Source: Ruminococcus sp. (GTDB taxonomy: Bacteria; Bacillota; Clostridia; Oscillospirales; Ruminococcaceae). Taken from it: a DNA stretch of 64,000 nucleotides. The translations under genes and the position numbers were made by a program. The stretch is taken from NCBI GenBank assembly GCA_024697545.1, contig JAILFN010000053.1:1-64000 (forward strand), given 5' to 3'. The first letter of the stretch is position 1. Each line of letters opens with the position of its first letter. This document shows, piece after piece, positions 54,810-59,559 of this stretch. The notes under the pieces are model-generated. The model saw only the letters and a list, made by a program, of their open reading frames with translations. It searched no databases and was not told the DNA's origin.

Positions 54810-57374
54810 ATGTCAGAGATCAATAAAAAGCTGACTATCGGTATACTTGCCGACGTTGACGCGGGAAAGACGACGATCTCCGAGGCTATGCTCTATCTTG
54901 CGGGTGCTGTAAGGAGCCGCGGCAGGGTGGACGACGGCAGCACCTTTCTCGATACCCACGAGCTTGAACGGGCAAGGGGCATAACGATATTTTCAAAGCA
55001 GGCGGTGTTTGAGTATGGGGGTACCCGCTTTTATCTGCTCGACACCCCCGGGCACGCCGATTTTACCGCCGAGACCGAACGCGCGGCAATGGTGCTCGAT
55101 CACGCGGTCATGCTGATAAACGGCTCGGACGGAGTGACGGCACACGCCCTGTCGCTCTGGAAAACGCTTCGCAGCAGGAACGTCCCTACGTTTATTTTCG
55201 TCAACAAGACCGACCTTGCGGGCTTTGACAAGGCAGCGGTCATGCAAAACCTGACAAGGCGGCTGGGCGATGCCGTCGTGGATTTTGATGCCGACCCAGA
55301 CGAGATAGCCGAGGAAGCCGCAGTCTGCGATGAACAGCTGCTCGAAGTGTTCGACCGCACGGGGAGTATCCCCGAAAGCGAGCTTGCGGCGGCGGTCGCA
55401 AGATGCTCGGTCTTCCCCTGCATATTCGGCTCGGCGCTCAGGTCCGATGGAGTTGACAAGCTGCTCGGACTTCTTTGCAGCCTTACCCGTGCTCCGCATT
55501 ACGGTGATACATTCTCCGCGAAGGTGTATAAGATAGAGCGCGATTCCGAAGGCAAGAGGATGACCGTCATGAAGCTGACGGGCGGAAGTCTTTCTGTCCG
55601 CGATGTTATCAGATACCGCGCCGCAGACGGATCGTATATCGAGGAGAAAGCCGCGCGTATACGCATTTACAGCGGCGGCAGAGCAAACGAGCTGCGTACC
55701 GCCGAAGCGGGCGATGTCATAGCCGTGCCGGGACTGACCGCTACATACGCGGGCATGACGATAGGCGGCACCGAGGAAACGTCCGAGGTCTCAGGTGAGG
55801 CTTCGATATGCTGTGCCGTTTACCCGCCCGAGGGCTGCGACAGCTATACGCTTCTCATGAAGCTGCGCGAGCTTCGTGAGGAGGATCCCTCGCTCTGCGT
55901 GCATTTCAATGAAAAAACTCAGGAGACCGAGGTCAGCCTTTCGGGAGAGCTGCGAACAGAGGTGCTGCGGCATGAGATAAAGCGCCGCTACGGTCTTGAC
56001 GTTACTTTCGGCAGCGGGCGTGTGCTTTATAAGGAGACTATAGGTGCGCCCGTGGAGGGAGTGGGGCATTTCGAGCCGCTGCGCCACTATGCCGAGGTGC
56101 ATCTTGTGCTGACACCTCTCCCCGAGGGCAGCGGCATAGTCTATGATTCCGCCGTCCCCGAAGACAGGCTCGACCGCAGCTGGCAGAACCTTATACTGTC
56201 AAGCCTTAAAGCCAAAGAGCATATCGGTGTGCTGACGGGAAGCCCGATCACCGATATGCGTATCACCCTTACCGCAGGCAGGGCACACACAAAGCATACC
56301 GAGGGCGGCGACTTCCGCGAGGCTTCATGGCGTGCGCTGCGTCAGGGACTCATGAAAGCACGCAATATCCTGCTTGAACCGTTTTACAGCTTTGCGCTCA
56401 GAGTTCCCGCAGCTCAGGTCGGCAGGGCGCTCACAGACCTCGATGCCATGCACGCCGAGTTCTCACAGCCCGAACCCGACGGCGATATGCAGCTGATAAC
56501 GGGCAAGGCTCCCGCCGTCAGGCTGAAAAGCTACGCTGCCGATGTCGCAGCCTACACCCGCGGCAGCGGCTCGATCTATACCGAGCCTGCGGGCTACTTC
56601 CCCTGTATAAATGATAAGGAGGTCATAGCCGAGATGGGCTACGACCCCTGCGCGGATCTTGAAAATACCCCCGATTCCGTCTTCTGCTCGCACGGCTCGG
56701 GCGATGTCGTAAACTGGGCGGAGGTGGAGAAGTATATGCACCTGCCCGCAACGCTTGCCGATGACAAGCCCGTGCCTGTCTCCGCGGAACGCAGCCGCAA
56801 GATAAGCCTTGGCGACGATGAGCTTCGCAGGATAATGCAGAAGATAGCCCCCGAAAAAGAAAAGATCTCCGATGAGGAGGAGAGCCGCCGCTCACGCGAG
56901 AAGGCAAAGGCGGCAGCCGCAAAGTCGGTAAAGCCCGACACCCGCCCCCGCCTGCTGCTTGTGGACGGATATAACATCATCTTTGCATGGGAACAGCTGC
57001 GCGGGCTTGCGGGCGTGAATATCGACTCCGCCTGCGCGAAGCTTGCGGATATACTCTCAAACTATGCGGGCTTCAAAGGCATTGACGTAATGCTCGTCTT
57101 TGATGCCTACAAGACACCTGCCGTCACCCCGCATAAGGTCACAGCCGATTCCATTGAGGTGGTCTACACAAGGTCGGGGCAGACGAGCGATGCTTTCATA
57201 GAGAGCTTTTGCAGCGAGAATCGCAAGAAGCTGAGGATAAAGGTGGCGAGCAGCGACGGCATGGTGCAGATGTCGGTGATGCGCTGCGGCGCTCTGAGAA
57301 TGTCCGCCCGCGAGCTTGAGCTTGAGGTCGCCCGCACCGAAGCTCTGATAACCGAGATCATTTCGGCAGACTGA
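54810..57374 (+). CDS. TetM/TetO-like translational GTPase fused to C-terminal YacP/Rae1-like NYN domain
   Basis: ILADVDAGKTTISEAMLYLAGAVRSRGRVDDGSTFLDTHELERARGITIFS, LLDTPGHADFTAETER, NKTDLAG; C-term LLLVDGYNIIFAWEQLRG, LVFDAYKTPA, TSDAFIESF, VASSDGMVQMSVMRCGA. Confidence 0.93.
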   Translation: MSEINKKLTIGILADVDAGKTTISEAMLYLAGAVRSRGRVDDGSTFLDTHELERARGITIFSKQAVFEYGGTRFYLLDTPGHADFTAETERAAMVLDHAVMLINGSDGVTAHALSLWKTLRSRNVPTFIFVNKTDLAGFDKAAVMQNLTRRLGDAVVDFDADPDEIAEEAAVCDEQLLEVFDRTGSIPESELAAAVARCSVFPCIFGSALRSDGVDKLLGLLCSLTRAPHYGDTFSAKVYKIERDSEGKRMTVMKLTGGSLSVRDVIRYRAADGSYIEEKAARIRIYSGGRANELRTAEAGDVIAVPGLTATYAGMTIGGTEETSEVSGEASICCAVYPPEGCDSYTLLMKLRELREEDPSLCVHFNEKTQETEVSLSGELRTEVLRHEIKRRYGLDVTFGSGRVLYKETIGAPVEGVGHFEPLRHYAEVHLVLTPLPEGSGIVYDSAVPEDRLDRSWQNLILSSLKAKEHIGVLTGSPITDMRITLTAGRAHTKHTEGGDFREASWRALRQGLMKARNILLEPFYSFALRVPAAQVGRALTDLDAMHAEFSQPEPDGDMQLITGKAPAVRLKSYAADVAAYTRGSGSIYTEPAGYFPCINDKEVIAEMGYDPCADLENTPDSVFCSHGSGDVVNWAEVEKYMHLPATLADDKPVPVSAERSRKISLGDDELRRIMQKIAPEKEKISDEEESRRSREKAKAAAAKSVKPDTRPRLLLVDGYNIIFAWEQLRGLAGVNIDSACAKLADILSNYAGFKGIDVMLVFDAYKTPAVTPHKVTADSIEVVYTRSGQTSDAFIESFCSENRKKLRIKVASSDGMVQMSVMRCGALRMSARELELEVARTEALITEIISAD

Positions 57375-57399: not shown

Positions 57400-57524
57400 A
57401 AAAAAAAGAGCCTACACGGTGTAGGCTTGAGATGAAATGAAATAAAACTATGTGTAGAACAAAAGAAAGGAGACAACAAAACGGATGTTAGCATCAATCA
57501 TTAAATGAATGACTATTTAACATC
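57400..57524 (-). ncRNA. Candidate small regulatory RNA (~125 nt)
   Basis: Minus strand: promoter, 5' stem GATGTTA/TAACATC, CU-rich linker with TCTCCTTTC, terminator AGCCTAC..GTAGGCT + C + T8. Confidence 0.6.
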
Positions 57525-57530
57525 AATTAC

Positions 57531-57559
57531 ATTATATACTATTTTCGGTCACTTGTCAA
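57531..57559 (-). promoter_or_regulatory. Consensus sigma-A promoter on the minus strand for the candidate sRNA
   Basis: TTGACA-17 nt-TATAAT (minus strand). Confidence 0.8.
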
Positions 57560-59530: not shown

Positions 59531-59559
59531 TTGACATATCACATAAATCATGGTATAAT
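59531..59559 (+). promoter_or_regulatory. sigma-A promoter of glgA
   Basis: TTGACA-17 nt-TATAAT. Confidence 0.85.

Follow-up and report, generated by a model that had tools for sequence, protein, structure and literature searches.

Promoter, predicted transcript and fold of the locus

The window analysed here, a 64,000-nucleotide stretch of Ruminococcus sp. DNA, carries on its minus strand a promoter identical to the sigma-A consensus, followed by a predicted RNA with a hairpin at each end (Table 1). This layout had been read from the letters in the original prediction, and its parts hold: the promoter is exact, the 5' stem is present and reproduced by our fold, the CU-rich linker is left unpaired and single-stranded, and the terminator hairpin with its C and eight Ts lies where it had been placed. 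The 125-nt RNA folds into exactly two hairpins with the unpaired linker between them (MFE -22.4 kcal/mol; z = -3.25), and 0/200 shuffled sequences are equally stable.

An Elongation-factor-G-like GTPase gene with a C-terminal YacP-type NYN nuclease domain (54810-57374) is convergent with the sRNA gene. Two 12/12 promoter sites occur in 10 kb, the sRNA promoter among them; the second (59531-59559), with TG before its -10, lies upstream of a glycogen-synthase-like gene. The promoter profile of the sRNA loci contains only the -35, the -10 and A/T tracts, with no operator-like motif seen beyond these, suggesting strong, perhaps constitutive, transcription.

Table 1. Predicted features of the sRNA locus, with positions in the window
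Feature	Position	Strand	Basis
Sigma-A promoter, TTGACA-17-TATAAT	57531..57559	-	12/12 consensus; at least 11/12 with 17-nt spacer at 127/130 listed homologous loci
-35 element TTGACA, followed by 17-nt spacer	57559-57554	-
-10 element TATAAT	57536-57531	-
Predicted sRNA transcript, ~125 nt	57400..57524	-	fold; covariance model, 84.8 bits
5' hairpin, GATGTTA...TAACATC	57484..57524	-	fold; helix covaries among relatives
5' stem arms, GATGTTA paired with TAACATC	57524-57518 with 57490-57484	-
Linker core, 26 nt, invariant, proposed pairing region TTGTCTCCTTTCTTTTGTTCTACACA	57451..57476	-	conservation; complementary leaders in relatives
TCTCCTTTC within the linker	57473-57465	-
Spacer from linker to terminator, U-rich, unstructured	57428..57450	-	fold; U-rich in most relatives
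Intrinsic terminator, 8-bp stem, 3-nt loop, C and eight T	57400..57427	-	sequence, fold; present at 130/130 listed loci
Terminator hairpin, AGCCTAC-ACCGT-GTAGGCT, then C	57427-57409	-
Eight T	57407-57400	-

A conserved, free-standing RNA gene

The 26-nt linker core UUGUCUCCUUUCUUUUGUUCUACACA is invariant at at least 130 distinct loci, a set that joins whole-genome matches to the at least 120 stretches found by an exact scan of 85,488 species genomes; this invariance is partly by construction, since the exact-match scan supplied loci, yet independent mismatch-tolerant searches still return mostly 26/26 core matches. The flanks drop to 28-52% identity while the linker stays invariant. Exact-core matches listed include several strains of R. 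flavefaciens, R. albus 8 and Anaerotruncus sp. MC2020. The original prediction had staked itself on homologous loci keeping promoter and stems, and among the 130 listed a promoter matching at 11-12/12 positions with a 17-nt spacer is found at 127 and a terminator at all 130, with predicted sRNA lengths mostly of 102-144 nt. Judged by the recurrence of linker and architecture together at these 130 or more loci, the layout is more than chance.

By BLAST, the locus is present in 12/13 genomes of the genus (the missing one is a 56% complete genome) and also turns up elsewhere in the family, in several genera. Across the family it occurs in 54/199 genomes and 31/125 genera, usually as one gene per genome; in other families of the order it was found in 0/271 genomes. 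A covariance-model search revealed no clear divergent class, and below ~48 bits it gave target loci and weak matches, with no divergent members recognised besides these. One locus (L132:1249-1274, 1496-1521) carries two tandem cores at a distance of 247 nt, both with the same hairpin, and no TATAAT-like hexamer precedes the second. Another copy, with a sigma-A type promoter, lies on a contig labelled as an Alistipes sp. MAG (L106) that is probably mislabelled or misbinned.

The original prediction had proposed covariation in related genomes as a check on the structure, and the 5' hairpin bears this out. In a sample of 45 diverse members, pairing holds in 89.8% of the cells of its 6-pair helix versus 33-53% when slid, double-sided changes occur at 6/6 pairs, and the covariation score is 0.494 versus 0.224 in shuffles; across relatives the hairpin is also stabler than shuffles (median z about -3). 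RNAalifold predicted no pairs on the divergent alignment because the arms are misaligned there, and the named helix was counted directly instead. At the other end of the RNA, the 5' arm of the terminator takes 85 different sequences among the 130 listed loci. Covariation of the 5' helix, together with the co-occurrence of promoter and terminator on a single strand at almost all loci, makes it very improbable that the locus is an untranscribed conserved DNA element or a chance terminator hairpin.

Neighbouring genes vary, the biggest shared neighbour cluster covering 33/122 loci, and by its genomic context the sRNA locus is thus neither tied to one neighbour nor cis-acting. It is equally improbable that the linker encodes a small protein. 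The linker is stop-free in any frame and TTG-start frames cross it at many loci, but an SD-like sequence accompanies just 13 cases, the distance to the stop takes 26-27 values per frame, and third positions vary no more than the rest. Among relatives, no ORF that crosses the linker shows a consistent end or SD, in agreement with the earlier reading that the RNA holds no convincing ORF. A short plus-strand ORF (ATG at the stem, 7-8 codons) was rejected, as it is absent in GTGTTA-type relatives such as L019 and L020. By these sequence criteria, the locus is a conserved, free-standing RNA gene.

The exact 26-nt core also occurs on six IMG/VR viral contigs (L154:85-110, L156:6637-6662, L157:970-995, L155, L153 and L158). 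On the first three it lies just upstream of a same-strand tRNA gene (tRNA-Leu or tRNA-Met), and on L156 it is near terminase genes; that contig encodes terminase and portal proteins and is therefore a real phage. The phage copies keep the 3' hairpin and some keep the 5' hairpin; no U-tract was seen in them. The phage and plasmid collections searched gave weak matches only, consistent with chance. We disfavour reading the phage copies as mRNA leaders: the downstream tRNAs lie on the same strand as the sRNA and no ORF is conserved, both of which speak for a sense reading.

Complementary mRNA leaders in relatives

When the 61-nt linker was searched against 13 congeneric genomes, with the reversed sequence as control, it returned 15 non-self matches versus 0 at E<1e-3 and 23 versus 1 at E<0.01. 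An SD and start codon lie near the site on the antisense strand at 26/41 inspected sites and on the other strand at 0/41, a strand control with some built-in bias, since CUCC has an SD-like complement; start calls for the target genes are mechanical. Complementarity to the linker reaches ~30 nt in the leaders of specific genes: those for GntR, PadR, anti-sigma/ECF sigma, histidine kinase, LytTR, FtsX permease and lipoproteins. Pfam supports the recurrent genes among the predicted targets: GntR and PadR regulators, zf-HC2 anti-sigma, ECF sigma, HisKA kinases, a LytTR response regulator, an ABC ATPase, FtsX permeases, and lipoproteins, of which one is a serpin.

Several of these predictions recur between genomes. 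GntR sites are found in G000, G005, G012 and G149, the last of another genus; PadR sites in G000 and G006; histidine kinase sites in G000, G005 and G006; and FtsX sites in G000, G009 and G132. In G000 and G006 the site covers the start codon of the anti-sigma gene, and in R. albus 8 it covers the SD of the ECF sigma gene. In three histidine-kinase leaders (L278, L285, L286), the stretch from the complementary site to the start codon contains a shared hairpin.

How the sites are built separates them from ordinary ribosome binding sites. In 31 sites, chosen by linker similarity so that the pairing profile is biased to matches, the arms AACAAAAGAAA and GACAACAAAAC are preserved in almost all, and mismatches gather at the GG of GGAG, each G being affected in 10/31; centres of such two-arm sites include GCA, GAA, GAC and AAA. 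Many leaders thus appear to keep the pairing yet avoid a spurious ribosome-binding site. The core includes CUCCUUUCU, identical to the anti-SD end of 16S rRNA, and the RNA could on that ground act as a global anti-Shine-Dalgarno RNA, damping translation in general by mimicry of the 16S 3' end. We consider this most unlikely: at 411 gene starts, linker pairing energies equal those of flank-shuffled linkers that keep the anti-SD core, and the specific sites avoid GGAG, which together argue against mere SD resemblance. The original prediction of a trans-acting sRNA with an anti-SD linker therefore divides, its trans-acting part being strongly supported and its generic anti-SD pairing not: neither the general complementarity to ribosome binding sites nor the general excess of targets at start codons that it had expected appears at the 411 starts. 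From the site sequences, the specific pairing signal comes instead from extended sites, present in certain leaders; the SD-like centre is gone from many of these sites.

R. flavefaciens ATCC 19208 and Anaerotruncus sp. MC2020 hold few or no extended sites despite an identical linker. Genomes in which extended mRNA complement is not seen, and a core unsubstituted over 26 nt at at least 130 loci, tighter than most base-pairing seeds, would fit an RNA whose CU-rich linker binds and sequesters an RNA-binding protein, as CsrB does with CsrA. Titrating RNAs have many repeats, however, and each RNA here has a single unrepeated core; moreover, many mRNA leaders hold the complement, with G:U-tolerated changes in G194, and a protein site predicts neither. 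We regard protein titration as unlikely, though less so than the global anti-SD reading.

Some leaders carry more than one site: R. albus 8 and G194 have a triple tandem site, and a double site occurs in G006 C79. In R. albus 8 (L338:1470-1680) and G194 (L354), three tandem ~80-nt repeats lie in one leader, a possible sponge, and each repeat holds a near-complete linker complement and a second partial one. These tandem sites lie between the gene for a His/Asp-rich protein, NfeD-like by eye only and without a Pfam match, and the next gene. It is conceivable, if doubtful, that the sRNA is mainly a controlled molecule, with such two- and three-copy leaders acting as sponges and the main targets using shorter pairing. 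Sites often lie upstream of the SD without an SD-like centre, as this would allow, but most are single and at most 60 nt from the start codon, and several extend over the SD or the start itself.

Proposed function and relation to known regulatory RNAs

We propose, with good though not complete confidence, that the locus encodes a trans-acting base-pairing sRNA acting on complementary mRNA leaders. Properties expected of such an RNA are found here: a free-standing gene with its own conserved promoter and terminator amid varied neighbours, an invariant exposed linker, and complementary leaders in relatives above the reversed control. In the mechanism we envisage, the near-consensus housekeeping promoter would yield a short RNA whose two hairpins cap its ends and expose the CU-rich linker. 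The linker probably pairs with the leaders of transcripts that encode cell-surface regulators and transporters: mostly those of ABC-transporter regulators (GntR, PadR), sigma/anti-sigma pairs and sensor kinases, and also of FtsX-type permeases and surface lipoproteins. A site over the Shine-Dalgarno or start codon would block translation, while at a site 20-60 nt upstream the long two-arm duplex would lower mRNA stability (for example through RNase III), and leaders with several sites may titrate the sRNA. Physiologically, the RNA is likely to adjust cell-envelope and transport functions. We infer transcription, in vivo pairing and the direction of regulation from sequence.

The RNA appears to be new. 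Rfam 15, at gathering and relaxed thresholds, gave no family match in the whole window (best sub-threshold E = 0.88), and the literature searched held nothing relevant on sRNAs in Ruminococcus or on the linker sequence itself. By sequence, it is a new sRNA family of a known general kind: two-hairpin, CU-linker and trans-acting. By analogy, it would work like the streptococcal csRNAs or listerial LhrC while belonging to neither. The csRNAs of Streptococcus are several related copies, CiaR-dependent and with a short conserved nonamer (PMC3091779); like them, this RNA has a strong promoter, a ~100-nt scale and two stem-loops flanking an unpaired region complementary to translation initiation regions. 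Unlike them, it is usually present in one copy, its invariant core is 26 nt long and different in sequence, no operator-like motif is seen around its promoter, and at most sites it would have no anti-AUG role. In Listeria monocytogenes, LhrC is encoded in five copies, every one with three UCCC sites, and depends on LisRK (PMC4132741). The two share CU-rich unpaired target-binding sites and a link to cell-envelope stress, LhrC having a cell-surface protein target, but here there is one linker, without UCCC, in a usually single copy, and the Rfam scan found no sequence relation. RoxS/RsaE and FsrA are C-rich sRNAs whose single-stranded C-rich region pairs with mRNA leaders, as is predicted here, and RosA is a sponge RNA with several complementary regions (PMC8216469). 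Our RNA has no sequence or Rfam match to the former and belongs to Ruminococcaceae, outside Bacillales; unlike RosA, the complements seen here lie inside mRNA leaders and not in a stand-alone sponge RNA.

A broader model, which we offer tentatively, is that the sRNA is a lineage-defining hub of Ruminococcaceae that controls envelope-stress regulators through two-arm leader sites under selection to be free of an SD-like centre, with some leaders acting as multi-site sponges and phage copies of the exact core next to tRNA genes interfering with this regulation or supplying it. The SD-avoiding two-arm sites and the phage-borne copies raise specific new questions. No sRNA is described in the literature searched for these fibre-degrading gut and rumen bacteria, and the one proposed here occurs in cultured strains (R. 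albus 8, R. flavefaciens) and about thirty genera, with a concrete list of targets. Cultured hosts, a conserved seed and that target list would thus make post-transcriptional control in Ruminococcaceae directly testable.
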